64,000 nucleotides of DNA, taken from contig NZ_VUNH01000004.1 of assembly GCF_009695745.1 (NCBI RefSeq), positions 62,001 through 126,000 on the forward strand, read 5' to 3'. The position numbers were made by a program, and so were the translations under genes. The notes beneath the pieces are model-generated. The model ran no database searches. It had not been told where the DNA came from and was given only the letters and a program-made list of their open reading frames with translations. Position 1 is the stretch's first letter; each line of letters begins with the position of its first letter. This document shows, one piece after another, positions 2,115 to 62,960 of this stretch. The stretch is from Pyramidobacter porci (GTDB lineage: Bacteria; Synergistota; Synergistia; Synergistales; Dethiosulfovibrionaceae).

Positions 2115-2116
2115 CC

Positions 2117-46461: not shown

Positions 46462-46484
46462 CAGGAAGGGGGCGTGTTTGTATC

Positions 46485-47276: not shown

Positions 47277-47292
47277 CGGGAGTGAAATCATC

Positions 47293-48081
47293 GTGACAAA
47301 CGCCGTTCACGTGACCGCGGGGATCCTGATCCCGTTTCTGGGCACGAGCCTGGGCGCGGCCTGCGTTTTTTTCATGAAGGGCAGCATGAGGGAAAACGTG
47401 CAGAAAGGCCTCACCGGTTTCGCCGCCGGCGTGATGGTGGCCGCTTCCGTGTGGAGCCTGCTGATCCCGGCCATCGATCTGGCGGCGGAGTACGGCCGGG
47501 GCGCCGTCGTGCCGTCGGTCGTCGGCTTCTGGCTGGGGATCCTGTTCCTGCTGCTGCTCGACCACGCCATTCCGCACCTGCACCAGTTCAGCGAGGAGGC
47601 GGAAGGGCCGCGCAGCCGCCTGGCGCGCACGACGATGATGGTCCTGGCGGTGACGATCCACAACGTGCCCGAGGGCATGGCCGTCGGCGTCGTTTACGCC
47701 GGGCTGCTGGCGGGTACGGCGAACATCACGCCGATGAGCGCGCTGGCGCTGGCCGTCGGCATCGCCATCCAAAACTTTCCGGAAGGGGCGATCATCTCCA
47801 TGCCGCTCCACGCCGAGGGGCAGAGCAAATGGAAAGCGTTCGCGGGCGGCGTGCTCTCCGGCGCCGTCGAGCCGCTGGGCGCGGCCGGCACGCTGCTGGC
47901 CATCGGCCTGGTCGTTCCGGCCATGCCCTATCTGCTCAGCTTCGCCGCCGGCGCCATGCTCTACGTCGTCGTCGAGGAACTGATCCCGGAGATGTCGCAG
48001 CCTCCCCACTCCGATTGCGGCACGCTCTCGTTCGCTCTGGGGTTCAGCGTCATGATGGCGCTGGACGTGGTGTTGGGGTAA
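47293..48081 (+). CDS. ZIP-family divalent metal transporter
   Basis: A 262-residue eight-helix protein of the ZIP/ZupT family from a GTG start. The metal-site helices are recognisable: TIHNVPEGMAVGVVYAG (HNxPEG) in helix IV and GIAIQNFPEGAIISMPL (QNxPEG) in helix V, with EELIPE near the C-terminus. A histidine pair DHAIPHLHQFSEE lies in the cytoplasmic loop. It imports Zn, Fe or Mn. As third gene after the two methyltransferases, behind a DtxR/MntR-like operator, it supports metal control of this operon. Confidence 0.9.
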   Translation: MTNAVHVTAGILIPFLGTSLGAACVFFMKGSMRENVQKGLTGFAAGVMVAASVWSLLIPAIDLAAEYGRGAVVPSVVGFWLGILFLLLLDHAIPHLHQFSEEAEGPRSRLARTTMMVLAVTIHNVPEGMAVGVVYAGLLAGTANITPMSALALAVGIAIQNFPEGAIISMPLHAEGQSKWKAFAGGVLSGAVEPLGAAGTLLAIGLVVPAMPYLLSFAAGAMLYVVVEELIPEMSQPPHSDCGTLSFALGFSVMMALDVVLG

Positions 48082-48120
48082 GAACGACGGTTGAAGAACA
48101 ACTTATGATTATAAAAGAGG

Positions 48121-48167
48121 CCTCCGGAAGTTCCCGCAGAGCGCGGGATTTTCCGGAGGTTTCTTTC
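48121..48167 (+). terminator. Terminator of the methyltransferase-ZIP operon
   Basis: Stem CCTCCGGAA (48121-48129) with TTCCGGAGG (48151-48159), plus an inner CCCGC/GCGGG, followed by TTTCTTTC. Confidence 0.8.
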
Positions 48168-48206
48168 GTGCCGCGCCGGGGCGCGGACAAAACAGGTCGA
48201 TTTGCG

Positions 48207-49484
48207 TCAGCGGCGCGCGGCTTCGAAGCTCAGGTCGGGATAACCGGCGGCGCGGACAGTCACCGCGCCGCGCTCCTTGAAAAGCGGCGCGGAAAGATCG
48301 AGGCGGCCTTCACCGTCGATGATCTTCGCTCTCTTCGGGTTGACCGCCGTGCCGTCGATCGTCAGCTCGCGGACGCAGCGCAGATAGTTTTTGAAATCCT
48401 CTTCGCCGCCGGCGGGGACGAGGCGTCCGCCCTCCGCGTCCCATGCGGCGGGAAGGACGTCGGTCGAGAGCACGAATGCGGCCGTCAGCGTCTCGTACAC
48501 GCCCTTTTCGTCCGTGATTTTCATCTCGTACTCGCCGGGCTTGTTCCGCGCGGACCAAACGATGCGGCCGTCTGCGGCCGTGCCGCCGTCAAGCGCTCCG
48601 GCGTCGTACACGGGAACGTAGTTCCCGGGGAGCTCGCCCTCTACCGCAAACGCCGTGTGGCCGGCCGCGAGCGCGGCGTTTTCCGCCTTCAGACGGCAGC
48701 CGGTGAGGACGGGCAGATAAACTTGCGCGTCCACGTTGTAGACGGCCTTGTCGGTGATGTAGGTCAGACCGGTGATCGTCGTGCCGGTCAGAGTCTTGTA
48801 GTGCGCGGGGAAGGTGGGGTTGACGTCCTTGATGAACTTGGTGTAGCCCACGTTCCAGCCCAGCTCGCGCCCGCCGCGCCAGATGTTCTCCAGGCGGCGC
48901 ATGCCGTAGTCGTTCTGCGCCGTGCGGACGATCACGCCGTACAGCGTTTCTTTCTCGGGATCGGTGTCGAAGCCGTCCAGCTTCAGCTGGTAGTCGCCGC
49001 GCCGGGTCCTGGTCCTGACGCTGCCCTTCACGTTCGCGACGGCCACTTCCGGCAGCCCCTGCACCTTGCCGAACGCGGGCGCGCCGCCGGCAACGCTCAT
49101 TTCCTTGAAGAACGCGGGGGCCTGCGTCAGTTCCGTCCAGGCGTAGCTGCCACGCGAGAAAAGTTCGTCGGCCGACGCGGCGTGAACGAATCCCTTCAGC
49201 GCCGCCTCGTCAACCTTGACGGGGAACGTCACGCCTTCGATGATCAGCGTCGTGTCGTCGCCGGTGTGGTAGGTGCCGCCGACCAGATGCGCGTTTTTCG
49301 CCTTGGCGACGGTCGCCGAGGTGACCGCGTCCACAGGTACGGCGTTCTTCGCCAGTTCCGCCTTGTAAAAATCGTTGTAGGGAACGTTCATCAGCACGTA
49401 AACCGGCGCGCTTTCGGCGCTCCCCGCCCCGCACGCCGCCAGCGCCAGCGCGGCGATTGCCGCTGTCAATCCTTTGTTCATCAT
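48207..49484 (-). CDS. Tp47-like lipoprotein
   Basis: A 425-residue exported lipoprotein: signal LTAAIAALALAACG with lipobox LAAC. YVLMNVPYNDFYKAEL, AVTSATVAKAKNAHLVGGTYH and the later NDYGMRRLENIWRGG...GWNVGY resemble segments of the Treponema Tp47 lipoprotein (domain order A-B-C-D), which has weak penicillin-binding activity. AAGGAGG precedes the ATG at 49484. A near-perfect inverted repeat (49507-49525) like a DtxR/MntR operator lies just upstream, and a similar one precedes the ZIP operon. A role in metal or haem handling is therefore possible, by inference only. Confidence 0.65.
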   Translation of the reverse strand: MMNKGLTAAIAALALAACGAGSAESAPVYVLMNVPYNDFYKAELAKNAVPVDAVTSATVAKAKNAHLVGGTYHTGDDTTLIIEGVTFPVKVDEAALKGFVHAASADELFSRGSYAWTELTQAPAFFKEMSVAGGAPAFGKVQGLPEVAVANVKGSVRTRTRRGDYQLKLDGFDTDPEKETLYGVIVRTAQNDYGMRRLENIWRGGRELGWNVGYTKFIKDVNPTFPAHYKTLTGTTITGLTYITDKAVYNVDAQVYLPVLTGCRLKAENAALAAGHTAFAVEGELPGNYVPVYDAGALDGGTAADGRIVWSARNKPGEYEMKITDEKGVYETLTAAFVLSTDVLPAAWDAEGGRLVPAGGEEDFKNYLRCVRELTIDGTAVNPKRAKIIDGEGRLDLSAPLFKERGAVTVRAAGYPDLSFEAARR

Positions 49485-49506
49485 CGTTCAGCCTCCTTGA
49501 ATATTT

Positions 49507-49525
49507 TTAGTTAGATTTGTCTAAC
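49507..49525 (-). promoter_or_regulatory. DtxR/MntR-like operator before the Tp47-like gene
   Basis: TTAGTTAGATTTGTCTAAC, containing arms GTTAGA and TCTAAC around TTTG. It lies 23 bases upstream of the lipoprotein start codon, close to where its promoter must be. Confidence 0.5.
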
Positions 49526-49723
49526 ATCGCTGTCATCATAGCATTTTGCGCCGCCGCGTGTCAACGAAAATCCTCTGCCCAAACCGCCGGCAAATTTTTC
49601 TGCGGGAAACGGGCGATATTTCCCGTTCCGCCGCAGGAGACGATGTTTTTCGCACGCTTTCAGCGGTATAATAATCGCAAAAAGATTCGCGCGCTGCGCT
49701 TCAAACGACAGGAGGCTCAGACA

Positions 49724-50257
49724 ATGACGCACACGCAGTATTACGATTCGCCGCTCGGCAGAATGCTCATGGCCGCCGACGGCGCGGCGCTGACGGGGCT
49801 GTGGTTCGAGGGGCAGAAACATTTCGCCCGAACGCTGGCGGAACAGCACGCCGAGGGCGATCTGCCCGTGTTCGCCGAAACGGCGGCGTGGCTGGACATG
49901 TATTTCGCGGGACAAAACCCCGGTCCCGTTCCGCCGCTGAGCCTGCACGGCAGCGATTTCCGACTGGCCGTGTGGGACGCGCTGCTGGCTATTCCCCGCG
50001 GATCCGTGACGACTTACGGCGACATCTCCCGCCGGATCGCCGCGGAGCGCGGACTCAGCCGCATGTCGGCGCAGGCCGTCGGCGGCGCGGTCGCTCGCAA
50101 TCCGATCTCCATCATCGTGCCCTGCCACCGCGTCGTCGGCACTGGCGGCAGCCTGACCGGCTACGCCGGAGGCATCGCCAGAAAGCAGGCCCTGCTGCGC
50201 CTCGAAGGCGTTGACCTGAGCCGCTTCTTCGTCCCCAAAACGGGAACGGCGCTGTAA
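49724..50257 (+). CDS. ogt: Methylated-DNA--protein-cysteine methyltransferase
   Basis: A 177-residue Ogt/MGMT protein. IVPCHRVVG (131-139) contains the acceptor Cys134, which takes the alkyl group from O6-alkylguanine in a single-use reaction; SVTTYGDISRRI and NPISI are the flanking helix-turn-helix segments. The N-terminal domain (YYDSPLGRMLMAADG) is normal. The ATG at 49724 follows CAGGAGG; the frame is open much further upstream without a site. It is a monocistronic gene followed by a parS site and a terminator. Confidence 0.92.
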   Translation: MTHTQYYDSPLGRMLMAADGAALTGLWFEGQKHFARTLAEQHAEGDLPVFAETAAWLDMYFAGQNPGPVPPLSLHGSDFRLAVWDALLAIPRGSVTTYGDISRRIAAERGLSRMSAQAVGGAVARNPISIIVPCHRVVGTGGSLTGYAGGIARKQALLRLEGVDLSRFFVPKTGTAL

Positions 50258-50312
50258 AGAACGGTTCGTCAAAGTTTGAGAAATGCCGCCAACGGCTGAT
50301 CTTGCCGCAGGC

Positions 50313-50328
50313 TGTTCCACGTGGAACA
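50313..50328. other. parS centromere site (ParB binding), copy 3
   Basis: TGTTCCACGTGGAACA flanked by GC on each side, identical to the two other sites. It is intergenic, 55 bases after the ogt stop. Confidence 0.85.
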
Positions 50329-50352
50329 GCGAAAATCACAAAAACAAAACAC

Positions 50353-50394
50353 GCCGCGTTCCCCTGGCAAAAGGGGAACGCGGCGCGGCTTTTT
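50353..50394 (+). terminator. Terminator after ogt/parS
   Basis: Stem GCCGCGTTCCCCT (50353-50365) with AGGGGAACGCGGC (50372-50384), then GCGGCTTTTT. Confidence 0.8.
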
Positions 50395-50395
50395 G

Positions 50396-50555
50396 ATACT
50401 ACTTCTCAACAAAAAGGCCGAACACAAGGGCGCTGCGAGGGAGATTCACAAAGCGAGCTGCGCAGACCGCGCAGCGGTCGAGGTAGTCCTGAGCGACTGA
50501 ACTCCCTCGCGGCGCCTAGCAAACTATGTTAACGCTTTTTATCAGGAAACAGTAT
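50396..50555 (+). repeat. Structured interspersed repeat, full copy (160 bp)
   Basis: Left end ATACTACTTCTCAACAAAAA resembles the reverse complement of the right end CTTTTTATCAGGAAACAGTAT, giving imperfect terminal inverted repeats. The core GCGCTGCGAGGGAG pairs with CTCCCTCGCGGCGC around a loop with its own small stems (GCTGCGCAGACCGCGCAGC). Related copies lie at 13702-13762 and 39368-39512. It has no coding capacity, as expected for a MITE. Confidence 0.75.
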
Positions 50556-50634
50556 GAAAATACACCTTCGGCATGACGGAGTCCCGCCATGTCATTTGGA
50601 AGGCATCGCGCCGCCCCATATTCGCGGCCTTGCA

Positions 50635-50669
50635 AAAAGTCCCGAATCTGACGCAGATTCGGGACTTTT
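50635..50669. terminator. Bidirectional terminator
   Basis: Perfect 16-bp stem AAAAGTCCCGAATCTG/CAGATTCGGGACTTTT with a 3-base loop. It ends the minus-strand operon whose last stop is at 50694. Confidence 0.88.
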
Positions 50670-50693
50670 CATTCACATCGTAATGTTCTTTGT

Positions 50694-52010
50694 TTAGTCG
50701 GCAGCCTTCTTGGCGGCTTCGATTTCTTCGGCCGTGGCGTCGGCGTCGCGCAGATAGCGGCCGATACCGTTCTGCATGATATCGTCATAGGAAGGCATGT
50801 TGGTGATCACGATCTTGCGCTCGCCTTCGGGGCCTTTCGCCAGCATCCGCTGCGCCTCGGCGTCGTCGATCTTCAGCGCCGCGTCGGGCTTCAGCTCGCC
50901 GAGATCCTTGGGATAGCCGCTGTACTCGTTGCGGGCGTCTTCGCCCAGGTCGGAGTAGATCTCCGCCAGAGACAGATCGGTGGCCACATTGCGGCCGGTG
51001 CGCTCGTTCAGAGTGACGCCTTCGCTCTTGTAATCGACCTTCAGCAGCTTGTCCTCGAGCAGATGGCGGTACACTTCGTCCTTGCCGTTGATGATCAGTT
51101 CTTCATAGGTGACGCCGCGGGCGGAACCCTGGCTGGGGTTGGGCGTTTCGGACAGGAAAGCGATGGCGGGCGTGTAGTCGCCGAGCTCGCGGTGCGAAAA
51201 TCCGTGCAGCGGGATGGGCGAGATCTCGACGCGCATCCTGATGTTCTGCTCCTCGAGCATCAGCGCCATCTCGGAGGTCAGGTCGATGCCTTTCTGGTGC
51301 ACGCAGATGGCGTTGACCAGAGGCTTTTCGGGCGGAGCTTCGTGATGGTCGATGATCATGTCGGCGGCCTCGTCCCAGCACATGCGGTTGAAGGCGTAGG
51401 CGACCTGCTGGGTCAGCAGGCCGTGAGGATTGCCGGGATGAGCGCGGTCAAGGTTGCGGATCTCGTCGGCGGCCAGATTCTGCCCCGAAGGATAATGCAG
51501 GTACATGTCGGGGTCTGGGAACTGGTCGACGGGGTTGGAACCGCGGTTGCCGTAGCGGAAATAGCGGACCTTGCCGCTGGGCGTGGCGATGTGGAAATAG
51601 GGCACGTGACCGAGCCCGGGCTCGCAGGTGCTGAAGCCGGAGTTGTTGGAGTGAGGCACCACCATGACCTTGCCTTCGGTGACCACGGCGTTCTCGATGA
51701 AGAGAACGGCCGCCAGCAGTCCGCCGGGCTCGGTAGGATGCGTGCCGCCCATGATGATGAAATTTCCGCCGGGCTTGCCGCTGTCAAGGACGTAAACCTT
51801 GGAGTCGCCGTTGGTCCCCTTCAGGAAGGGATTGTAATCGCTCAGCATCTTCACGTCGGTGACGCCGGGGCCCTTGTAAATGGGCTCGACGTTGAACTGA
51901 TAGCGGAATTCCTTGCCGACGGTGAAGATTCCGGCGCCGAGTGCGGCCGCCAGGATCAGTCCGGTGAGGAAATTGCCGCAGCCTTTTTTCGCGGAATTGT
52001 TTTCAGACAT
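50694..52010 (-). CDS. Membrane-anchored AstE/AspA-like (M14 superfamily) deacylase
   Basis: A 438-residue protein with one N-terminal membrane helix (FLTGLILAAALGAGIFTVG) and a succinylglutamate desuccinylase/aspartoacylase-type zinc domain. GGTHPTEPGG (His91, Glu94) gives two zinc ligands, RNLDRAHPG (about 185-193) is the family NLNR-FPG-like motif, and ADMIIDHHEAPP (about 217-227) supplies the third histidine. The family cleaves N-acyl amino acids or C-terminal residues. The anchor suggests it faces the periplasm. It is the last gene of the ggt-mdcA-permease run. The exact substrate is unknown. Confidence 0.75.
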   Translation of the reverse strand: MSENNSAKKGCGNFLTGLILAAALGAGIFTVGKEFRYQFNVEPIYKGPGVTDVKMLSDYNPFLKGTNGDSKVYVLDSGKPGGNFIIMGGTHPTEPGGLLAAVLFIENAVVTEGKVMVVPHSNNSGFSTCEPGLGHVPYFHIATPSGKVRYFRYGNRGSNPVDQFPDPDMYLHYPSGQNLAADEIRNLDRAHPGNPHGLLTQQVAYAFNRMCWDEAADMIIDHHEAPPEKPLVNAICVHQKGIDLTSEMALMLEEQNIRMRVEISPIPLHGFSHRELGDYTPAIAFLSETPNPSQGSARGVTYEELIINGKDEVYRHLLEDKLLKVDYKSEGVTLNERTGRNVATDLSLAEIYSDLGEDARNEYSGYPKDLGELKPDAALKIDDAEAQRMLAKGPEGERKIVITNMPSYDDIMQNGIGRYLRDADATAEEIEAAKKAAD

Positions 52011-52034
52011 TTTTCATTCTCCCTCTTGAACCGA

Positions 52035-52199
52035 TCAGTGAAGCAGAAACAGACGCAGAAGGAAAGGAATAAGGAGGATGGCGCAGCCGATCTGTTTGGC
52101 AAGGCTCTTCTGGGTGAACAGATTATAGATGAACAGCACCGAGAAGAAAGCGACCATGACCAGATAGGCGTACTTCATGATAATGTACTGGAATGCCAT
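52035..52199 (-). CDS. 54-residue two-helix membrane protein
   Basis: A short frame starting MAFQYIIMKYAYLVMVAFFS and ending LLIPFLLRLFLLH. Two hydrophobic helices flank a short polar loop (NLFTQKSLAKQIG). GAGGAG precedes the ATG by about 9 bases. It fits tightly between the permease (18-base gap) and the deacylase gene (24 bases), so it is very likely translated. Its position next to a DctM-like permease suggests a small accessory subunit. It does not resemble DctQ, which is three times longer. Confidence 0.7.
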   Translation of the reverse strand: MAFQYIIMKYAYLVMVAFFSVLFIYNLFTQKSLAKQIGCAILLIPFLLRLFLLH

Positions 52200-52217
52200 A
52201 ATGAGAAAACTCCTCTC

Positions 52218-53582
52218 TTACTTCAGGGGAATGCCCAGACCGCGCAGGAAGACCACGATCTCGTTGGCATAGACCATGACGACAACGCTGAGGATCAACG
52301 ACAGGACGGCGGGGAGAACGCATTTCTTGAGCATCTTGCCCTGATTCCCAAGCCCTACGGCGCGGGCGGCAAACTGCGCGGAAACGGAGGTCGGCGGCAG
52401 CAGCGCGCCCACGCACATGATCAGCGTCAGGGCGGAGGTGACCCAGATCGCGTTCTTGTTCGTGAAGGCCATGATCAGAGGGATGCCGAGCACGCCGGCA
52501 CAGCCGAAGGGCATCAGCAGACCGCCGACGATGGGCGCGACGACCGCGATGGACAGATAAAGCAGCGGCCCCTTCAATCCAAGGGCGCCGAGCACCGTAG
52601 CGCCGCGGGCGCCGGTCAGACCCATGATCTGAATCATCATGCCGACGGCGGCAAAGAGCGCCATGACCTCGACGGACTCGGACATGGACTGGACGGAGAC
52701 CTTCCAGAAATTGATCTTCTTTTTGCTGCACAGCAGCGCCATGACGATGCCCATGCAGAACACCAGCGGCGTGCCGGGGTCGATCTGCGGATAATAACTC
52801 TTGACGATCATGTAACCGATCAGGAACACCAGCGGGAACTGAGGCAGGAATCCCTTCACCGCGGGATCGCCGGGGATCTTGGCGAGAACGGCTTCCTTGT
52901 CGACCTTGCTGACCGAGCGGCGGGCGATGTACAGCACCGAGAAGACGGCCAACGGCAGCGTCAAAATCAGCAGCGGGATCGCAAAACCCTCGTACGGCAT
53001 GTAGACGCCCGTGCCGATCAGCATAGCGGGCACGTTGACGGGCGGCGCCACCATGCCGAACAGCGAGCCGAGAGCGATGATCGCCGCGGCGTCATCGCGC
53101 GAGACGCCGATCTCCAAAAGAATGGGCAGCACGAGCACGCCGGTGCTGAGGACCGACGCGGGGGCCGAACCGGTGAGCATGGCCGGCAGCATGATCAGGA
53201 TCATGATCAGGATCAGCAGAAGCGTGGGCGACTTGTGGAAGCCGCCGACGATCTCGCGGGTCAGCAGATTCAAGGCGCCGTTCTCCTTGAGAATACTCAT
53301 GAAAAGCATGCCGGCCGCCACCGTCAGCATCAGGTTGAGGAACAGCATGGAACCTTCCATGAAATGCCTCAGCAGCGACGGCACGGTCTCGCTGTTGCCG
53401 ACGAAGACGCTGGCGATGGACGTGAAGTAGTCGCGTTTCAGAAGGGGATCGGTCATGCCGCCGACAACGGCCCCCGCGATCGACGCGACGACCAGCAGGA
53501 CGGCGACGGGGATCTTACGCATGAACGAACCTGCCACCAGGATCGCCAGCATGACTCCCAAAACGATTAACGAATTGGTCAT
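52218..53582 (-). CDS. DctM/GntP-like large permease
   Basis: A 454-residue inner-membrane protein with about twelve helices. SGSAPASVLSTGVLVLPILLEIG, GMVAPPVNVPAMLIGTG and the C-terminal GALLPPTSVSAQFAARAVG are repeat-related PP-containing loops as in DctM-type TRAP and ion-transporter-superfamily permeases. The ATG at 53582 follows GGAGG by 9 bases; an upstream frame has no site. No DctP or DctQ partner is adjacent; instead a 54-residue membrane protein follows. The exported small protein at 55718 might serve as a binding partner. The substrate may be a dicarboxylate or acyl amino acid. Confidence 0.75.
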   Translation of the reverse strand: MTNSLIVLGVMLAILVAGSFMRKIPVAVLLVVASIAGAVVGGMTDPLLKRDYFTSIASVFVGNSETVPSLLRHFMEGSMLFLNLMLTVAAGMLFMSILKENGALNLLTREIVGGFHKSPTLLLILIMILIMLPAMLTGSAPASVLSTGVLVLPILLEIGVSRDDAAAIIALGSLFGMVAPPVNVPAMLIGTGVYMPYEGFAIPLLILTLPLAVFSVLYIARRSVSKVDKEAVLAKIPGDPAVKGFLPQFPLVFLIGYMIVKSYYPQIDPGTPLVFCMGIVMALLCSKKKINFWKVSVQSMSESVEVMALFAAVGMMIQIMGLTGARGATVLGALGLKGPLLYLSIAVVAPIVGGLLMPFGCAGVLGIPLIMAFTNKNAIWVTSALTLIMCVGALLPPTSVSAQFAARAVGLGNQGKMLKKCVLPAVLSLILSVVVMVYANEIVVFLRGLGIPLK

Positions 53583-53718
53583 TCTCTTTCGTACCTCCAG
53601 AAAGGTAAAACTGTGACTTCGGCTTCGCTGCCCCACGGCAGCACTCTCACGCGCGGAACTTCGAATCGATCGCCGCACCCCGCCCGCGACCGCGGACGGA
53701 GCGACGGCAGACCGTTAT

Positions 53719-55449
53719 TCACCGACGGGACGAATCCTCTTTCCCGGGCAGGAACTTTGCGGGCGGATCGTAGAGCCCGCCGGACCACTCCACCAGCTCC
53801 ATGATGTCCTTGGCAGCCAGTCGGTCGCGGGTCGCCGTGGCCACGTCGATGCCAAGATCGGCGGGCGTTTTGACGATGCCGAGCTCGCGCATCCGGCGGC
53901 GCTCTTCCTCGCTGCCCTGCAGCCCCACGGGGGTCTTGCCGGCGACGCTGCGGATGGCGGCCCGGCGCTCTTCGATGTCGCGGCAGCGGTGCAGATACGC
54001 GATGCCCTGCTCGGTGACGATGTGAGTGAGGTCGTCGCCGTAGATCATGACGGGCTCGATGGGCAGGTTGGCGTTCTTCATCAGTTTCTCGGCGTCAAGA
54101 TGCTCCACGAACGCGGGGATTTCTTTGAACTGGCCGGGATTCTTCTTGTCCCTGATCCTGGCGACCGTGTTCAGAATCTGCACGACCAGGCGGCGGCCGC
54201 GGTGCAGATCGGGGCCGATGGCAGCGGCCTGGGAGCCGACTTCGGCGCCCGCCTTGAGCCATGCCGCCGTCGAGTGACGACGGCCGCGGGAATCGCAGCC
54301 CATATTGGGAGCGCCGCCGAAACCGGCGACCTTCGTCGCCGTGGCCGTGCTGCTGTTGCCGTAAGGATCGATCTGCAGCGTCGCGCCGACGAACGCATCG
54401 ATGGCGTAATGCCCGGCGACCTGCGACATGCAGCGGTTCGACCGCATCGAGCCGTCGGGGCCGATGAAGAACACGTCGGGACGGGCCGCCACGTAGCGTT
54501 CCATGCCCAGTTCGCCGCCGAAACTGTGAACCGACTTGACCCAGCCCGACTCAATGGCGGGAATCAGCGTCGGATGAGGATTGAGGATCCAGTTGGAACA
54601 GATCTTGCCCTTCAGTCCCAGCTCCTCGCCGTACGTGGGCAGCAGCAGCTCGATGGCCGCGGTGTCGTAGCCGACGCCGTGGTTCAGGTTCTGGATGCCG
54701 TATTCGGCGTAAATGCCTTTGATGGTCATCATCGCCGTCAGCACGCGGGCGTCGGTGATCTTGGCGGGATCGCGCGTGAACAGCGGCTCGATGTAGAACG
54801 GCCGGGGCGACGTGACGATGAAATCGACGAAATCGGCGGGGATGTCCACGCGCGGCAGCCGGTCCACGATTTCGTTGACCTGGACGATGACGATCCCCTG
54901 GCGGAACTTGGTGGCCTCGACGATCGTCGGCGTGTCTTCGGTGCTGAAACCGGTGTAGAGGTTGCCCTCCCGATCGGCGGCATCCGCCACGACCAGTGCC
55001 ACGCGGGGCGTCAGATCGAGGAAATAGCGGCCGTAAAGTTCAAGATAGGTGTGAATGGCCCCGAGATCCAGCTTGCCGGCGCCGAGCAGCTCGGCGATGC
55101 GGCCGGACTGAGGCCCGGAGAACGAGAAATCAAGTTTTTTGGCGATGCCCTTTTCGAACACGTCGAGGTGCTCGGGCAGCGTCAGGACCGACTGCACCAT
55201 GTGCAGATCGTGCACTTTGGCAGGATCGACGGCACACAGGCACTGGGCCAGAAAATCAGCCTGCTTCTGATTGTCGCCTTCGATGTTGACGCGGTCGAAA
55301 GGACGGATAACCGCTTCGAGCAGAGCGACGGCATCCTCCGCCGTGACGACCTTGCCGCTGCCGACGATCTTCGCCGCCGCGGCAAGACGTTCGTCGGTAT
55401 CGCGCTTGATCGTATCCCAGGTGCGGGAAGTATCGTGATTGATCATCAT
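53719..55449 (-). CDS. mdcA: Malonate decarboxylase alpha-subunit homologue (CoA/ACP transferase)
   Basis: A 576-residue protein that follows MdcA almost throughout: EGDNQKQADFLAQCL, EHLDVFEKGIAKKLDFSFSGPQS, GNLYTGFSTEDTPTIVEA, PFYIEPLFTRDPAKI, KGIYAEYGIQNLNHGVG, KICSNWILNPHPTLIPAIESGW, HSFGGELGMERY, SMRSNR and MIYGDDLTHIVTEQGIAYL. In malonate decarboxylase MdcA swaps malonate for acetate on the acyl carrier protein. The other subunits (mdcC, mdcD, mdcE) and cofactor genes are absent from both sides. So it may act alone as an acyl-CoA:carboxylate CoA-transferase. The ATG pair at 55449 follows AAGGAGA. Confidence 0.85.
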   Translation of the reverse strand: MMINHDTSRTWDTIKRDTDERLAAAAKIVGSGKVVTAEDAVALLEAVIRPFDRVNIEGDNQKQADFLAQCLCAVDPAKVHDLHMVQSVLTLPEHLDVFEKGIAKKLDFSFSGPQSGRIAELLGAGKLDLGAIHTYLELYGRYFLDLTPRVALVVADAADREGNLYTGFSTEDTPTIVEATKFRQGIVIVQVNEIVDRLPRVDIPADFVDFIVTSPRPFYIEPLFTRDPAKITDARVLTAMMTIKGIYAEYGIQNLNHGVGYDTAAIELLLPTYGEELGLKGKICSNWILNPHPTLIPAIESGWVKSVHSFGGELGMERYVAARPDVFFIGPDGSMRSNRCMSQVAGHYAIDAFVGATLQIDPYGNSSTATATKVAGFGGAPNMGCDSRGRRHSTAAWLKAGAEVGSQAAAIGPDLHRGRRLVVQILNTVARIRDKKNPGQFKEIPAFVEHLDAEKLMKNANLPIEPVMIYGDDLTHIVTEQGIAYLHRCRDIEERRAAIRSVAGKTPVGLQGSEEERRRMRELGIVKTPADLGIDVATATRDRLAAKDIMELVEWSGGLYDPPAKFLPGKEDSSRR

Positions 55450-55717
55450 CTGAAGTCTCCTTGAAATTTTTTGCAGTCCTCCGCTTCCCTTGCGTATTTC
55501 CTACACAAGAGAGAAGAATCCGCACAGTGCCGCATTCAGACAGGATGACGGGCTGCGGAATGCGCAATTTTCGGCGTCATGTCGGCAAAAAAGCCGAAAG
55601 AGGGCGGAACAGCTTTCCAACAACGCGAGTGAAATCCGCTCCCGCCCCGTTAAAACATCATGACTCACTCCCGCGAAAGAAGAATGAGTCATGACGTTCA
55701 GATCTATGCTTCTGAAA

Positions 55718-56275
55718 TTACTTGAGCATCTCCGGCATGATCTTGCGAAGATCGCCGGTCTTCTGAATCGTGTACATGGGAACGTTCTTCTCAGTGCTGA
55801 GGTTGGTAAAGTAACCGTCAGCATTGCCGTCCTCACGAACGATCATGAAGTTGGCGTCGCCGGCAAAAGTCAGGAAAGGGGCCGAATTCGGACCGCGGCG
55901 GTCGGGGCCGCCGATGTGGAGCGCCACGACATACGCGTTGTTCTTCTTGGCTTCGGCGATGAGCTCGGTGCAGCGGGCCAGTTCGGAAGGGATGTCCAGA
56001 CCGGCGGCGCCGAGCCCCTTGCCGCTGCCGCCGAGAACCACGAACAGCGTCTTGTACTTTGTCCAGTCAACGTCTTTGGCAAAAACCGCCATTTCGTAGT
56101 CGACCTGATACTTTTTCGTCATCAGCTTCACGGCGTTGGCGTCCTGGCTCTGACCAAAGGGGGTCAAAAGGACGGGCTGCTGAACCGTGGGAAGCGCCGG
56201 CTGATCGGCGAAAGCCGCCGCGCCGAAAGCGAGAAAGCTGGCGCAGAGAAGCGCCGCAAGCGTAAATTTCTTCAT
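55718..56275 (-). CDS. Small exported protein (DUF6305-like)
   Basis: A 185-residue protein with a clear signal peptide (KKFTLAALLCASFLAFGAAAFA). The mature part begins DQPALPTVQQPVLLTPFGQSQDAN and has alternating beta and alpha segments (MAVFAKDVDWTKYKTLFVVLGGSGKGLG, NAYVVALHIGGPDRRG). It resembles the exported DUF6305-type proteins seen next to transporters, although I cannot check this. The ATG at 56275 follows AAAGGAG; an open extension of 42 codons upstream has none. Its place between ggt and mdcA in a permease operon suggests a periplasmic solute- or metal-binding role. Confidence 0.7.
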   Translation of the reverse strand: MKKFTLAALLCASFLAFGAAAFADQPALPTVQQPVLLTPFGQSQDANAVKLMTKKYQVDYEMAVFAKDVDWTKYKTLFVVLGGSGKGLGAAGLDIPSELARCTELIAEAKKNNAYVVALHIGGPDRRGPNSAPFLTFAGDANFMIVREDGNADGYFTNLSTEKNVPMYTIQKTGDLRKIMPEMLK

Positions 56276-56327
56276 CGTTGCGAAAATCTCCTTTGAAGGA
56301 TAGATTTGAGCGCCAGGCAAGAAAAAC

Positions 56328-58064
56328 TTACCAGGCAAAGGTGTAGGCGTTTCTGGTGGGATCGGCGCCGACGCTCCAGAAGCCGTTCTCGCGCACGCCA
56401 AGGCCGAGAGAACCGGTATTGGTCACGGGAACCATCTTGTAGCCCATGGCCTGCAGCTCGTCGAGCACCTTGGGATCGACCTGGGTCGGGTAGTTGACCA
56501 TGTAGGAGATCTGCTTGGGATACTTGTTCAGGCTGGCCGTGTCGCCGGCGGCGTCCGTAGCGATGCGGGGAGTTTCGACGGCGGCCTGGGGACGCATGCC
56601 GAACTCGACGACGTTCAGGAAACCCTGGACCTTGGTTTGTTCCTGACGGTCGGCGTTGGGCGTGCCGAAAGCCATGTAGGGTTCGCCGTCCTTCAGAGCG
56701 ATCGAAGGCGTGATCGTCTGCACGGTACGCTTATGAGGCGCCAGCGCGTTGGGCAGATCCATGTCGGGCGAGTACTGGATGCGGCGGTCGTTCATCATGA
56801 TGCCGTGCACCATCATGCTGGAACCGAAGAAATGGTTGATGGAGTGCGTCACGGCCACGATGTTGCCCTCGGCGTCGCAGACGAACATATGCGTCGTGTC
56901 GGGGCCCTTCTTCTCGTAGTCGACGAAGTACTTCTGGTCGCCCAGCGGGATCTCGTCGACGGCCTTGTTCATGTCGATCTGCTTGGTCATTTCCTTGGCG
57001 AACTCCTTGGTCAGGAGCGCCGCGGGGAACTTGTGGAAGCGCGGATCGGCGCTGAAGCGGTTGCGGTGGTTGATGGCGATCTGCAGAACCTGAGTGAGGA
57101 CGTTGATGTAATCCTTGCTGTTGTGCCCCATGGCCTTGAGGTCATAGTTCTCGAGCATGTTGAGCGTCTCGATCAGAACGGTGCCCTGGCTGTTGGGAGG
57201 CGTGCAGTACACATCGATGCCGCGGTAGTTGGTGGTGATGGGGGTGGTCTCCTCGGCGTGGAACTCGTTGAAATCCTCGATGGAGAAATCGCCGCCGTTT
57301 TCGTTGTTCCACTTGACGATCTCTTCGGCGACAGGGCCGCGATAGAAGTAGTCGTCGGCCGCCTTGAAACCGTCGGCAAGCGTCTTGCCTTCGGCCGCCT
57401 TGGCCGCCACCTCGCCCATCGTCTTCATCAGATCGGCATAGTCCTTGTTCACGTAGACGTCGCCGGCTTTCAGCGCTTTGCCGTTGGGGAAGAACACCGC
57501 CTTGGCCTGATCGTTCATGGGGCCGGCGTTCTTCTCGATCATGTTGGCCAGGAAATCGTCGACGATGATGCCGTTTTCGGCCATGTCAACCACGGGAGCG
57601 AGGATGTCCTTCAGGGGCATCGTGCCGTACTTGGCGAGGAACGTCATCCAGCCCGACCACTCGCCGGGGATGTGCATGGAGAAAATGCCCTTGGCGGGAA
57701 TCTCGGCGTCTCTCTCGAGCTGCTCCTTGGCCTTGTTGGGAGCCCAGCCGGTGCCGTTGAAGCTGAAGACCTTCTTGTCCTTGGCGGAATAACCGATCAG
57801 CTGCAGGTCGCCGCCGAAGATATGGCACATCATGACCTCGCTGTAGCTCTGAGCCGCGGCCATGGCCAGCGCCGCGTCGAAAGCGGTGCCGCCGGCCTGC
57901 AGGATCTTCATGCCGGCCAGTGCTGCGGCGGGACTGCCCGCATGGGCGACGGCGCGGCCGCTGATCGTGGGACGAGTCTGCTTGTACATCAGATTCGCGC
58001 TCGCGCTGCCGGCCCAAACGCCCAAGCCAAGCGCAACTGCTGCCAAAACCTTCTTACTCTTCAT
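56328..58064 (-). CDS. ggt: Gamma-glutamyltransferase (periplasmic)
   Basis: A 578-residue Ntn-hydrolase with signal peptide ([19 protein letters not shown]). RAVAHAGSPAAALAGMKILQAGGTAFDAALAMA is the family N-terminus. The self-cleavage site is GPDTTHMF, with Thr390 expected to be the new N-terminal nucleophile of the small subunit. The second subunit continues with DAEGNIVAVTHSINHFFGS and TPSIALKDGEPYMAFG. Ggt removes the gamma-glutamyl group from glutathione, gamma-glutamyl peptides or poly-gamma-glutamate. TTHM replaces the commoner TTHxS. AGGAGG precedes the ATG. It heads the minus-strand run to 50694. Confidence 0.88.
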   Translation of the reverse strand: MKSKKVLAAVALGLGVWAGSASANLMYKQTRPTISGRAVAHAGSPAAALAGMKILQAGGTAFDAALAMAAAQSYSEVMMCHIFGGDLQLIGYSAKDKKVFSFNGTGWAPNKAKEQLERDAEIPAKGIFSMHIPGEWSGWMTFLAKYGTMPLKDILAPVVDMAENGIIVDDFLANMIEKNAGPMNDQAKAVFFPNGKALKAGDVYVNKDYADLMKTMGEVAAKAAEGKTLADGFKAADDYFYRGPVAEEIVKWNNENGGDFSIEDFNEFHAEETTPITTNYRGIDVYCTPPNSQGTVLIETLNMLENYDLKAMGHNSKDYINVLTQVLQIAINHRNRFSADPRFHKFPAALLTKEFAKEMTKQIDMNKAVDEIPLGDQKYFVDYEKKGPDTTHMFVCDAEGNIVAVTHSINHFFGSSMMVHGIMMNDRRIQYSPDMDLPNALAPHKRTVQTITPSIALKDGEPYMAFGTPNADRQEQTKVQGFLNVVEFGMRPQAAVETPRIATDAAGDTASLNKYPKQISYMVNYPTQVDPKVLDELQAMGYKMVPVTNTGSLGLGVRENGFWSVGADPTRNAYTFAW

Positions 58065-58681
58065 CGTACTTCCTCCTCACAAAGATGAAATACTCTCCCC
58101 TGCTCCATCCGGAGCGCCCTTGCCTAAAACTCTATATGTCAGCCCAACCAAATCACGGGGGACATCAAAAGGTTATAACAACCTGACGAAATTTTAACAC
58201 AGGCCATTCAATAAAATTGTCATTGAAGCTAACCGACATGTTGGGAACCTATTTAAAATATAGCGGCGGTTCCTTTAAGAAACGGGTATGGAGCATCTCC
58301 CTCTTTCCGAAACGGACCGTTGCGCTTCGTCACGCGCCAGCCACGAAACGGCATGACGCATCTCGCGAAATCGACGGGGCCCTCCTTCAAAAAAACAAGT
58401 TCAACCTCGTCCTTTTCTTCACATGGACAGAAACGACTCTCCGAGGAAACGCGTCGACCGCTCCTCCCTTTCATCCCCGACACGCGGTCCATTATAAGCA
58501 AACCGCACTCATGCGTCTAATACATCAATTATATATCGCTTATGCTTCAAATTTATGATCGCGGTTTTGTTTTCGCAAGAAAAGGGCCTTCGCGATCTTT
58601 GCTTGTCCGTTACAAAATTTTCACCCCGCCCTTTTCATTTGCGGAGCGTCGCCAAACAAACTTCTCGCTTGACGATGCGCA
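58065..58681. other. 617-base intergenic region, no supported gene
   Basis: Lies between the ggt start and the end of the LysR gene. The first ~150 bases (AT-rich, with TTATAAC and TTAAAAT on the minus strand) probably hold the ggt promoter. Several short overlapping frames in the rest lack ribosome sites and family resemblance. Confidence 0.5.
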
Positions 58682-59614
58682 TCACAGCATCATCGTGTTG
58701 TATGAAAAGACGTGCTCGCGCCATTCCGTGCCCATGGCGTATTCCCAGAAGAGCCTCATGCCGCCGGTGAAGGAACTGCTTTCGCGCCGCAGCATGTAGA
58801 CGTAACGCGTCACCTGCAGACGGCGCACCGGTACGATCATAATGTCATGGTTTTCGCGGTTGGCCGCCAGCAGCGAGCGCGCCACAAAACCGACGCCGGC
58901 GCCGAGCGTCACCGACGACAGCACGTCGTTGTTGCCCGACACCTGCATGACGACGTTCATCCGCTCCAATGACAGGCCGACGCGGTTCAGCGCCTGGATC
59001 AGCAGGCGCATCAAATTGCCCGAGGCGTCGCGCACGACCAGCGGCAGGCGCTTCAGTTCGCGCAGCGTAATCGGTCCTGTCAGTCCCATGCGTACCGGAG
59101 CGATCAAAACAAGCGGATCGTAAAAGAACCGCTCGAAAACGATGCCGTCGTCCTGCGGACGAGTGCCGGTCACGCCGAGATCGAACTCCCCCTCTTTGAG
59201 ACGACGCGCCAGTTCGGTGCCGCGAAACGTTTTGACCTGTATCGTAAGCGCCGGGTTCTCCTCGCGGAATTTATTGGTCAGCACAGGCAGAAGCGAGCTG
59301 CCCGGCGTCGGCGTGACGCCGATTCTGACGGGCGCTTGCGGCGCATCCGACGACAGCGTGACTGCCGACAGCATGCCCCGATAATCGGTCAGCGCCTTTC
59401 GGGCGAACCCGGCGAAGATCTCGCCGGCCGCCGTCGGACGGACGGGGTGCCGCTGCCCGGGCGTGCGTTCCAATAGTCTCTGCCCCACTTCCGCCTCCAG
59501 CGCGCTCAGCGAAGTCGTGATGCTCGGCTGGCTCAGGTGCAGCAGACGGGCGGCAGCGGCAAAAGAACCGCAGCTCAAAATCGTCGCAAAAAGGTGAAGC
59601 TGTTCGAATCGCAT
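58682..59614 (-). CDS. LysR-family transcriptional regulator
   Basis: A 310-residue LysR regulator with winged helix MRFEQLHLFATILSCGSFAAAARLLHLSQPSITTSLSALEAEVGQ and a C-terminal effector domain (VRIGVTPTPGSSLLPVL, GEFDLGVTGTRPQDDG). It is divergent from tctCBA, with a 250-base region between the two starts that contains a good tct promoter and a palindrome. It probably controls the tricarboxylate transporter genes and the linked amidohydrolase in response to the substrate. Length and motifs are normal. Confidence 0.87.
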   Translation of the reverse strand: MRFEQLHLFATILSCGSFAAAARLLHLSQPSITTSLSALEAEVGQRLLERTPGQRHPVRPTAAGEIFAGFARKALTDYRGMLSAVTLSSDAPQAPVRIGVTPTPGSSLLPVLTNKFREENPALTIQVKTFRGTELARRLKEGEFDLGVTGTRPQDDGIVFERFFYDPLVLIAPVRMGLTGPITLRELKRLPLVVRDASGNLMRLLIQALNRVGLSLERMNVVMQVSGNNDVLSSVTLGAGVGFVARSLLAANRENHDIMIVPVRRLQVTRYVYMLRRESSSFTGGMRLFWEYAMGTEWREHVFSYNTMML

Positions 59615-59778
59615 CTGTTGGCCCCTCTTCTCTTGGAAATTTCTTATTGAAAAAACTTATAACTTTTAAAATCGAGTATACACGCATGGGACGATTTTGC
59701 CAGCCTTCAGAAAAATCAAATATACAGTTTTTCAATAGGTCATTCGTGAAACGCAAAAAACGGGCGCCTCGCAAGCCT

Positions 59779-59833
59779 TTGATTTTACTGGACTGGGCTG
59801 ATATATTGAAACTGTGAACGAAATGACGTTCAC
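59779..59833 (+). promoter_or_regulatory. tctCBA promoter with downstream palindrome
   Basis: TTGATT at 59779-59784, 17-bp spacer and TATATT at 59802-59807. Seven bases on is the perfect inverted repeat GTGAACG-AAATGA-CGTTCAC (59814-59833), well placed for a repressor at the transcription start. Confidence 0.6.
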
Positions 59834-59864
59834 ACATACGAAATTATTCAACAGGGGGACAATC

Positions 59865-60839
59865 ATGATGAAAAAGAGCGTCTTAGCAAAAGTCGCGTCT
59901 GTCGCCGCGCTGTTCATCACATGCGGTGCGGCCTTCGCCGCCGGCAAATACGACAACTGGCCGGAAAAGGATATTCACATCGTCTACTACACCCGCCCCG
60001 GTTCGGGCGGCGACACGTTCCTTCGCAACATGGCCGTCGCCGTCAAGGACAAGCTGAACGGCCACAACATCGTGATCGAGAATCTCATCGATCCTTCCGG
60101 CGCCGTGCCCTGGGGGCGCGTGCAGCGAGCGCCCAAAGACGGCTACACGCTGGCCTGCCTGAGCACCACGGTGGTCACCGCCGACTTGATCGGTCATTCG
60201 CCCGTCAAATATCCCGACTTCGCCTATGTCTGCGCGCTGGGCAACGATCCTCAGTACGTCTTCACGCGTAAGGACATGCCGTTTAACACGCTGCCCGAGC
60301 TGATCGAATACGCGAAAAAGAATCCCGGCAAACTCAACTGGGGCACCGCAGCTCCCACCAGCGCCAGCACGATCTGCTCCGCCGAGATCATCCGCACGAC
60401 GGGGATCGACGTGAACCGGATCGTTTTCGACACCGGCAGCGACACGCTGGTCAACATTCTCGGCGGCTTCTGCGACGTGGGCGTCGGCGAATACGTCGAC
60501 ATGCGTCCGCAGGTCGAAGCCGGCAACCTCAAACTGATCGCGCTGCTTGCCAAGGACCGCAACAGCCTCAACGTGCCTACCACCGTCGAGAACGGTTTCA
60601 ACATCGTCTTCGAGCGTCTGCGCGGACTCGCCGCTCCCGCCGGCACCGATCCCGAACTGGTGGGGCGCATGGCCGAAGTTTTCAAGGCCGCCCTTGACGA
60701 CGAGAAGTTCAAAAAGTATCTGGCCGACGAGGCCATCGAGGGCAAGTTCGTCGATGGCGCCGCGTTCCTCGCCTCCTATGACGGCGTGGCCGCAACCATC
60801 AAGGACAACGAGGCGGCTCTGCGCGGCAAGAGAAATTAG
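59865..60839 (+). CDS. Tripartite tricarboxylate transporter solute-binding protein (TctC/Bug family)
   Basis: A 324-residue periplasmic binding protein with signal peptide (VLAKVASVAALFITCGAAFA). NWPEKDIHIVYYTRPGSGGDTFLRNMA is the typical Bug-family start, followed by IENLIDPSGAVPWGRVQRAPKDGYTL and LRGLAAPAGTDPELVGRMAEVFKAALDDEKFKKYL. It binds a carboxylate (citrate, dicarboxylate or amino acid in known members) for TctAB. The ATG at 59865 follows AGGGGG by 6 bases; a frame extension upstream lies over the operator. First gene of tctC-tctB-tctA-amidohydrolase. Confidence 0.9.
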   Translation: MMKKSVLAKVASVAALFITCGAAFAAGKYDNWPEKDIHIVYYTRPGSGGDTFLRNMAVAVKDKLNGHNIVIENLIDPSGAVPWGRVQRAPKDGYTLACLSTTVVTADLIGHSPVKYPDFAYVCALGNDPQYVFTRKDMPFNTLPELIEYAKKNPGKLNWGTAAPTSASTICSAEIIRTTGIDVNRIVFDTGSDTLVNILGGFCDVGVGEYVDMRPQVEAGNLKLIALLAKDRNSLNVPTTVENGFNIVFERLRGLAAPAGTDPELVGRMAEVFKAALDDEKFKKYLADEAIEGKFVDGAAFLASYDGVAATIKDNEAALRGKRN

Positions 60840-60963
60840 GCGCGCCAAAACGCCGGCAGATTCGCCGCCACGGCGCGGCGAATCTGCTCTTTCATATCGA
60901 AATCGGCGGTTCGCCGCGGTTTCGGGCATTGATTTTTATTTTTTCGTCCAAGGAGGAATCCCT

Positions 60964-61434
60964 TTGAGCAGTTTTCTCAGCAAGGATCGCCTGATCGGCC
61001 TCTTTTGCTTCGCCTTTGCCGGTTACGTCTGGTACGAAGCGGGGACGTTCCCCACATCCGACTTCGACGCGGTCGGTCCCACGCTGTATCCGCGTTTTCT
61101 CGCCACGGTCATCGGCCTGGCGGCGCTGATCATCTCCTTGAAGGCAAAGCCCGAAAACGCCGCCGGCGCTTCGCGCCCCAAGTACGGATCGTTCCTGTAC
61201 GTGATCCTGCTTTCCATCGCCTACGCCGCCCTGCTGAATCCGCTCGGTTTTATCCCCACGACGGTTCTGTTCCTGCTGTGTATGGTGATTTACTTCGACC
61301 CCAGCGAGATGAAGGTCCGGCTGCGCAACGCCGCGCTTTATGCGGTGCTGTTCAGCGTTTTCCTGTATCTCTTCTTCGCCAAACTGCTGGGCGTACTTTT
61401 GCCCGGCGGCGTGCTTCACGGGCTGCTCGGCTGA
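60964..61434 (+). CDS. Tripartite tricarboxylate transporter TctB family protein
   Basis: A 156-residue four-helix membrane protein with the low-conservation layout of TctB: LIGLFCFAFAGYVWYEAGTFP, then FDAVGPTLYPRFLATVIGLAALIIS, which matches the GPxxFPR-type signature, and two C-terminal helices. The TTG at 60964 is taken as start, since AAGGAGG lies 7 bases before it and no ATG is near. tctA begins 19 bases after its stop. It forms the small membrane subunit with TctA. Confidence 0.85.
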   Translation: MSSFLSKDRLIGLFCFAFAGYVWYEAGTFPTSDFDAVGPTLYPRFLATVIGLAALIISLKAKPENAAGASRPKYGSFLYVILLSIAYAALLNPLGFIPTTVLFLLCMVIYFDPSEMKVRLRNAALYAVLFSVFLYLFFAKLLGVLLPGGVLHGLLG

Positions 61435-61453
61435 TTTCAAGGAGGTTTTTCCC

Positions 61454-62944
61454 ATGTTGGCTCTTTTCGGTCAGGGTCTGATGCAGGCCGCGACGCCTCT
61501 CAACATCATGTACATCGCTTTCGGCGTCATCTGGGGCATCATCGGCGGCGCCATCCCCGGCATTTCCGCCTCGGTGGCCATGTCGCTGCTGCTGCCGCTT
61601 ACGTTCGGCATGAATCCCGCGCATTCGCTTCCCATGCTGGCGGCCGTTTACGTGGGGGCGGAGTACGGCGGCTCGATCCCCGCCATTCTGATCAAGACGC
61701 CCGGCACGGGCGCCGCGGCAGCCACGGTGCTCGACGGTTACGAGATGCAGCGCAAGGGGCTGGGCGGCAAGGCGCTGTGCATCTCTCTGTATGCCGGCGT
61801 GCTTGGCGGCCTGGTTTCCGTCGTCATCCTGGTGTTTTCCACGCTGCCGCTGGCGCGTTTCGCGCTGAAGTTCGGGCCCAGCCAGTACTTTTGGATGGCC
61901 ATGATGGGGCTTTCCATCGTCGGCGCTGTGTCCGGCAAGGATTCCATGAAGGGCATCATCTCCGCCGCGTTCGGTCTGTTTCTCGCCATCATCGGCATGG
62001 ACAAGTTCACGTCGACGCAGCGTTTCACGTTCGGCGTGTTCCGGCTTTCCGAGGGGCTTGACCTGATTCCCGTGCTGGTCGGGCTGTTCGCCTTAAGTGA
62101 GGTGTTCCGCCAGATTTTCTCCGGCGAGATTTTTGAAGTCATCAGAGATAAGATCAAGATGACCTATCCTACCAAGAAAGAACTTGCCAGCGTTACGCCC
62201 ATCGTTTTGGCCTGCGGCGCCATGGGGTCCGTGGTCGGGGCCCTGCCCGGCGCTGGAGCCACGATCGCCTCGTGGATCGGGTACTCCGAAACGAAGATGT
62301 TCTGCAAGAACAACGAGACGTTCGGCACCGGCGACATCCGCGGCGTCGCCGCTCCCGAGTCGGCCAACAATGGAGTCCCCGCCGGCGGCCTGATTCCGCT
62401 GCTGGCGCTCGGCATTCCCGGTTCGAATTCGACGGCCATCCTCATGGTGGGATTCAGCCTGGCGGGCATCTCCTGCGGCCCGATGCTGTTCATCAATCAG
62501 CCAGCCGTTCCCTATGGCCTCATGGCCAGCATGTTCGTGGCGCAGATCGTGCTGCTCTTCGTGGGGCTGATGATGCTCCGTCCCTGCGTGTACATCACCT
62601 CCATCAAGAAGATTTATCTCACCTCGGCCATCATGCTGTTCGCCTTCATCGGTGCGTTTTCCACAACCAACGACATTTACTCCGTCATTCTCGTGCTGGT
62701 CTTTGGCCTGATCGGTTTCGCCATGAAGGAACTGGGGTTCGCGCCGGCGGCCACGGTGCTCGGATTCGTTCTCGGCGAACTGGTGGAGGGCAACCTGCGC
62801 CGCACCATGCAGATGTCGCGCGGCTCGATGGACATTTTCTTCGCCGGCGGGCTGAACAAGTTCTTCATCGCCCTGACGGTCCTCGGCGTGCTGTTCCCCT
62901 ACATCTCCAAGTGGATCAGCTCCCGCCGCAAGGCCGCGGCTTAA
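61454..62944 (+). CDS. Tripartite tricarboxylate transporter permease (TctA family)
   Basis: A 496-residue permease with about twelve helices. GIIGGAIPGISASVAMSLLLPLTFGM and AVYVGAEYGGSIPAILIKTPGTGAAAATVLDGYEM are the hallmark TctA signatures, repeated as GALPGAGATIASWIGYSETK and RGVAAPESANNGVPAGGLIPLLALGIPGS. AAGGAGG precedes the ATG. Length and motif order are normal. It moves the acid presented by the TctC-type protein at 59865, driven by ion gradients. The amidohydrolase gene begins 16 bases after its stop. Confidence 0.93.
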   Translation: MLALFGQGLMQAATPLNIMYIAFGVIWGIIGGAIPGISASVAMSLLLPLTFGMNPAHSLPMLAAVYVGAEYGGSIPAILIKTPGTGAAAATVLDGYEMQRKGLGGKALCISLYAGVLGGLVSVVILVFSTLPLARFALKFGPSQYFWMAMMGLSIVGAVSGKDSMKGIISAAFGLFLAIIGMDKFTSTQRFTFGVFRLSEGLDLIPVLVGLFALSEVFRQIFSGEIFEVIRDKIKMTYPTKKELASVTPIVLACGAMGSVVGALPGAGATIASWIGYSETKMFCKNNETFGTGDIRGVAAPESANNGVPAGGLIPLLALGIPGSNSTAILMVGFSLAGISCGPMLFINQPAVPYGLMASMFVAQIVLLFVGLMMLRPCVYITSIKKIYLTSAIMLFAFIGAFSTTNDIYSVILVLVFGLIGFAMKELGFAPAATVLGFVLGELVEGNLRRTMQMSRGSMDIFFAGGLNKFFIALTVLGVLFPYISKWISSRRKAAA

Positions 62945-62960
62945 AGCGGAGGTTTTCCCG

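Follow-up and report, generated by a model that had tools for sequence, protein, structure and literature searches.

The gene at positions 53719..55449 (minus strand) of the 64,000-nucleotide stretch of Pyramidobacter porci DNA analysed here, henceforth the window, was found by profile matches and structure to encode an MdcA-type malonate transferase of 576 residues, for which no MdcC-type ACP or MdcDE partner was found. We consider it probable that this protein is a stand-alone acyl-CoA:malonate CoA-transferase, i.e. an MdcA that has become independent of the MdcC ACP. Malonate would be bound in the usual MdcA pocket and there be exchanged with the acyl group of a CoA thioester, the simplest such reaction being acetyl-CoA + malonate <-> malonyl-CoA + acetate. 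Since the malonate site is kept and the patch that grips the carrier is lost, malonate is probably loaded onto coenzyme A, and we infer that CoA serves as carrier, that the donor group is acetyl and that the acid is malonate. A stand-alone CoA-transferase had already been put forward in an earlier, sequence-only reading of the locus, and it is the best explanation of what we found, with the active site kept, the ACP dock lost and MdcC, MdcD and MdcE not found. That reading had, however, proposed dicarboxylates in general as the acids; whereas CoA transfer to a carboxylate stands, malonate is the likelier acid because all of the malonate-binding residues (8/8) are kept.

The window protein matched Pfam PF16957 with 912 bits (cut-off 25) over model positions 2–543 of 546, and the curated TIGR01110 mdcA model with 895 bits (curated cut-off 789), which places it within MdcA and agrees with the full-length match claimed earlier. 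The solved structures that matched it were MdcA 5vit and 6mpr, from the Pseudomonas/Acinetobacter system, which have the whole fold, the length and eight malonate-site residues in common with the window protein, at 59% and 56% identity in structural alignment. Likewise, the nearest PDB chain to the AlphaFold model (mean pLDDT 87.9, pTM 0.88) was 5vit, with TM 0.89/0.94. Unlike the Pseudomonas/Acinetobacter system, that of the window genome has no MdcC, MdcD or MdcE that could be found, has lost docking residues and carries a 10-residue insert in the dock. The viral contigs searched gave no relatives, and Rfam gave no matches in window positions 46000–64000.

No mdc gene lies beside the window mdcA, as the sequence-only reading had held, and none of the six Pyramidobacter genomes has other mdc genes at the MdcA locus. 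The genome-wide search for mdcC, mdcD and mdcE that had been suggested as a check was performed on the window genome (2,525,102 bases, 98.4% complete) and found none of the three. TIGR03133 gave no MdcD match above cut-off in the whole genome, a whole-genome PF01039 search for MdcD and MdcE returned a single protein, of MmdA type, and no MdcC-type ACP was found, with PF06857 giving three places above cut-off genome-wide, all of them citD by NCBIfam. The PF06857 search gave 2, 3, 3, 1 and 1 places in the five other Pyramidobacter genomes, with names assigned only to those of the window genome. The PF01039 search is able to detect the decarboxylase subunits, because both MdcD and MdcE were recovered by it in two other synergistetes (G124 and G168). 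A hidden mdc operon elsewhere in the genome was ruled out by the MdcD, PF06857 and PF01039 searches. Set against the Mdc/Mad holoenzymes, the window system is without an MdcC-type ACP, without MdcD and MdcE, and without the MdcC-docking surface (F424, E466, I490). Prosthetic-group enzymes of the MdcB and MdcG types would in any case be expected for citrate-lyase loci.

According to the Pseudomonas holoenzyme paper (PMC5534430), the MdcA–malonate structure has N59, Y134, R228, N292, F312, R341, Q345 and G381 as active-site residues, with no acidic residue able to act as a catalytic Glu, and F424, E466, I490 and R521 are the MdcA residues mutated at the MdcC interface, where F424A broke the MdcACDE complex and E466A, I490A and R521A singly did not. 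The window MdcA keeps all eight malonate-binding/oxyanion residues (P. aeruginosa MdcA numbering), none of them acidic, as does every ACP-less row of our main alignment, which held 91 rows, 81 of them ACP-linked (the Pseudomonas structure included). The dock, on the other hand, is changed in the window MdcA, with F424 replaced by V, E466 by Q, I490 by K (D in two congeners) and E422 by N in Pseudomonas numbering. By alignment and model, residues 429–445 (54115..54165, minus strand) have V429 in place of the ACP-docking Phe424 followed by a 10-residue insert, modelled by AlphaFold as a single chain with two strands at 429–433 and 441–445. In the main alignment, this insert after 424 is seen in Pyramidobacter rows only, where the dock segment has 19 residues, against 9 in 81/81 ACP-linked rows. 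An aromatic residue occupies position 424 in the 81 ACP-linked rows and the 21 of a later plasmid set (102/102 in total) but in 0/11 distinct ACP-less sequences; among the ACP-less rows of the main alignment, those of Pyramidobacter and Dialister have V there, whereas both rows of the synergistete G138 show a gap. Position 466 is acidic in 79/81 ACP-linked rows and Q or V in ACP-less ones, and at position 490 the ACP-linked rows have I, L, F or Y (81/81), where ACP-less rows have K, D or E. R521 is uninformative on docking because it is not conserved among the aligned rows. One further locus, L133, was not part of the alignments; read separately, it has the expected F at the docking position.

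To put these changes in proportion, columns were counted as conserved when 90% or more of the 81 ACP-linked rows kept the residue class (n = 371). Pyramidobacter breaks 13 of the 371, compared with a median of 3 and at most 34 for ACP-linked rows, and all three conserved MdcC contacts named in the paper fall among those 13, for which the chance would be ~3e-5 on the assumption of independent columns, as computed after F424 had been noticed. Eight columns (58, 237, 422, 424, 428, 439, 466 and 490) were broken in each of the three ACP-less groups known at that stage. As judged from these residues, the MdcC-docking patch is lost and the malonate site retained in Pyramidobacter MdcA. Such a loss informs on the partner that was lost, not on its replacement.

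Among 185 Synergistota genomes, of which 115 had a completeness of 90% or more and a contamination of 5% or less, MdcA above the Pfam cut-off was found in nine, namely the six of Pyramidobacter together with G124, G168 and G138. G124 and G168 carry mad-type operons with ACP, MdcD, MdcE and OadB-like genes. G138 (96% complete) has two MdcAs, both with dock loss, and no PF06857 match genome-wide; one shares its row with genes for an MmdA-type subunit, OadG, a biotin carrier, OadB and an amidase, while the second adjoins an amidase. We regard G138 as a less strict member, because its MdcAs scored 788.3 and 781.4 against the TIGR01110 cut-off of 789.15 and its MmdA-type subunit 874 against the mmdA cut-off of 999. 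Ahead of the row with the MmdA-type subunit (L043:4237-17593) come molybdenum-hydroxylase, DHO-dehydrogenase-like and amidohydrolase genes, an arrangement suggestive of pyrimidine or barbiturate breakdown with malonate as the end product. In the GTDB sample, which consists of the best 80 of 578 relatives and therefore undersamples ACP-less copies elsewhere, MdcC adjoins MdcA in 78 loci, and the loci without it are those of Pyramidobacter (L085, with an MdcA identical to that of Pyramidobacter genome G117) and Dialister (L116). The ACP-less mdcA of the latter, Dialister sp. UBA1703 (L116:3795-9656), lies near an amidase 64% identical to that of G138, with a TIGR00366-like permease (427 bits, below the cut-off of 576) also nearby.

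A second sample, chosen for variety and thus non-random, comprised 24 of 53 plasmid MdcA places from 23 of 48 records. With L247 set aside for a broken MdcA frame, 23 places were readable, 21 of which have MdcC, MdcD and MdcE, and the dock in all 21 of these ACP-linked rows has E422, F424, E/D466 and I/V/F/Y490. On a plasmid of Bradyrhizobium sp. CB82 (L246:3007-5944), mdcA is directly followed by a gene for malonyl-CoA decarboxylase (PF05292, 336 bits); the MdcA has dock residues QHKD with the active site kept, and the pair is a candidate two-gene CoA route for malonate. Together with the G138 row, in which MdcA accompanies a decarboxylase of the biotin Na+-pump type, it exemplifies how an ACP-less MdcA may be put to use. 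The plasmid MdcA of Rhodococcus sp. JS3073 is ACP-less as well, with dock QQQA, the active site kept and an AEC-type transporter gene following it. Also found near this gene (L256:3704-11194) were a family III CoA-transferase, an enoyl-CoA hydratase-like gene and a luciferase-like monooxygenase. Using seven MdcC and three MdcD/E queries, no such partners were found at E <= 0.01 in the stretches from Dialister (17.6 kb), Bradyrhizobium (7.6 kb) or Rhodococcus (20 kb). In every case read, the dock residues tell ACP-linked and ACP-less MdcA apart, and this split suggests both a rule for annotation and a group of natural malonate activators that depend on CoA.

With regards to origins, the ACP-less state required 5 changes on a 54-row tree built with the dock columns left out, with 4 of them forced by supported branches and 4–5 found over bootstraps. 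On an earlier 40-row tree, a single clade for all ACP-less rows was rejected (p 0.035), as was grouping of either Pyramidobacter (p 0.006) or Dialister (p 0.002) with G138, but a single origin for Pyramidobacter and Dialister was compatible with that tree (p 0.33). Branches to the Bradyrhizobium and Rhodococcus rows are long, and the placement of these rows is unsure. All of the independent pairs were concordant (n = 4), and with just four such pairs existing, the p value of a sign test cannot fall under 0.125. Several ACP-independent MdcAs appear to have arisen from holoenzyme MdcA/MadA through loss of the carrier dock.

The closest known protein to the window MdcA by sequence, among the best 80 of 578 relatives, is MadA of the biotin-dependent Na+ malonate decarboxylase, which is also near on the trees. 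Unlike the Pyramidobacter locus, mad-type operons (Phascolarctobacterium, G124, G168) have genes for an ACP, MdcD/E-like subunits and an OadB-like protein adjacent, and most have a biotin carrier. The reaction proposed for the window MdcA would be that catalysed by malonate CoA-transferase (EC 2.8.3.3), and a CoA-transfer route for malonate is found in Sporomusa malonica. EC 2.8.3.3 activity in the malonate decarboxylase of Pseudomonas ovalis is mentioned, by way of a 1981 paper, in PMC8307300. Among open-licence PMC papers, we found none that ties EC 2.8.3.3 to an ACP-free MdcA lineage. Family I CoA-transferases (SCOT, succinyl-CoA:acetate CoA-transferase, YdiF) show a likeness in fold, with TM about 0.4–0.55 at 13–16% identity; the window protein matched none of the curated models of that family above cut-off, the best being FadX with 19 bits against a cut-off of 750.

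Malonyl-CoA formed by the proposed CoA-transferase could then be decarboxylated by the methylmalonyl-CoA-decarboxylase-like enzyme of the genome, as is suggested by the gene row of G138, and the outcome would be a split, ACP-free and Na+-coupled malonate decarboxylase. Each of the six Pyramidobacter genomes has one PF01039 protein, which in the window genome is of MmdA type, with 829 bits against the mmdA cut-off of 999. Its gene is clustered with OadG-like and biotin-carrier genes, two OadB genes lie elsewhere in the genome, and methylmalonyl-CoA mutase is also present, so that a methylmalonyl-CoA decarboxylase is likely. Because of the mutase, the MmdA-type protein probably performs its usual job, malonyl-CoA would be a second substrate, and a role for malonyl-CoA alone is disfavoured.

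An alternative fate of the malonyl-CoA would be fatty acid synthesis, which is possible because no biotin carboxylase turned up in Synergistota. Specifically, biotin carboxylase (AccC) gave no match at E <= 1e-20 in 185/185 Synergistota genomes, although weaker matches of about 30–50 bits occur, and 13/14 control genomes were positive, Thermotoga maritima being the negative one. Synergistota without apparent biotin carboxylase raise the question of where their malonyl-CoA comes from. FabD (in genome G000 at C9:119775-120647) was above cut-off in five of six genomes tested, including three Pyramidobacter, and the sixth, G168, gave a partial match. MdcA is not the general source of malonyl-CoA in the phylum, since 176/185 genomes are without MdcA above cut-off. 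If true, ACP-free MdcAs would provide malonyl-CoA without biotin, bicarbonate or ATP. That MdcA feeds fatty acid synthesis, bypassing acetyl-CoA carboxylase, and that ACP-free MdcA is more broadly a recurrent form readable from four dock residues, is a speculative proposal which we hold to be rather doubtful.

The window mdcA is part of a same-direction row kept in 6/6 Pyramidobacter genomes, here on the minus strand. The row begins with a gene for a gamma-glutamyltransferase (GGT) family protein (56328..58064; PF01019 372 bits, g_glut_trans 316, below the NCBIfam cut-off of 358) and continues with a DUF6305 protein as upstream neighbour of MdcA (55718..56275; PF19823 133 bits, start codon by eye), MdcA itself, a DctM/CitMHS-type permease (TRAP-like large subunit) next downstream (52218..53588; PF06808 43.7 bits) and a hydrolase-like protein (50694..52010; M14, AstE/AspA-like by eye, no Pfam family above cut-off). 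A promoter-like site upstream of the GGT gene (58491..58519, minus strand) had 10/12 matches, in a scan giving 5 sites compared with 2.4 expected. A terminator-like hairpin after the M14-like gene (50350..50387, minus strand; 16 pairs, T tail) was the longest stem among 9 terminator-like sites, with 10.2 expected. Such a row could instead suggest that MdcA is a CoA-transferase for another short dicarboxylate, released by the GGT or the M14-like hydrolase and imported by the permease, and with this would agree, besides the conservation of all five genes, the resemblance of the fold to 4-hydroxybutyrate and succinyl-CoA:acetate CoA-transferases and the pattern of identity in the two most distant congeners, where no gene of the row is conserved as well as those for the permease (93–94% identical) and MdcA (89%), the other three having 69–80%. 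We nonetheless find this alternative unlikely, since all malonate-site residues named in the paper are kept and relatives of the hydrolase, permease and GGT co-occur in other Synergistota, most of them without MdcA.

Relatives of the M14-like hydrolase were found in 70/185 Synergistota genomes at E <= 1e-30, with six matches in the window genome. In 23 of the 24 hydrolase loci read outside the genus, from 64 such genomes, a related permease adjoins the hydrolase, and 11 of the 24 gave a GGT match over 400 residues. This hydrolase–permease module, often with GGT, is thus widespread in Synergistota (window 50694-53588, loci L216-L239). The permease family has older partners than MdcA, as it stands beside the hydrolase in 23/24 loci and MdcA occurs in 9/185 genomes, and since the module exists apart from MdcA, a tie between that family and MdcA is disfavoured. 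The earlier suggestion that the CoA-transferase serves the neighbouring permease is therefore left uncertain, as the joint high conservation of permease and MdcA in the two congeners favours such a tie, but the pairing of permease with hydrolase in the other loci does not.

A different way to account for the missing MdcC would be that MdcA borrows the citrate-lyase ACP (CitD), acting as an ACP transferase in trans. The genome does have three PF06857 ACPs, one of them in the window at 976-1242, and CitF and MdcA have a common fold (1xr4 and 2hj0 in the structure search). All three ACPs are CitD, however, and each of the three citD genes adjoins a CitE-like gene (CitE by eye); moreover, the dock is also lost in G138, whose genome gave no PF06857 match, and the MdcC-docking residues are gone in the window MdcA, making such borrowing, in our estimate, distinctly improbable. 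The citD gene in the window belongs to a citDEF citrate-lyase-like locus (976-3667, plus strand; citE by eye). When the CitF of the window was compared with MdcA for a CitF-like dock, the alignment was weak.

That the window mdcA would be a functionless relic of a lost mad operon, as might be thought from its nearest relatives outside the genus (72–76% identity, best 80 of 578) being found in the mad-type operons of Phascolarctobacterium and kin, is very hard to credit, because the gene is intact and under purifying selection, with full length in 6/6 Pyramidobacter genomes and dN/dS values of 0.065, 0.069 and 0.137 against three congeners, by which gene decay was ruled out. The curated mdcA model labels the window protein 'malonate decarboxylase subunit alpha', and the Bradyrhizobium MdcA record carries the same name, in both cases implying a pathway that is absent.
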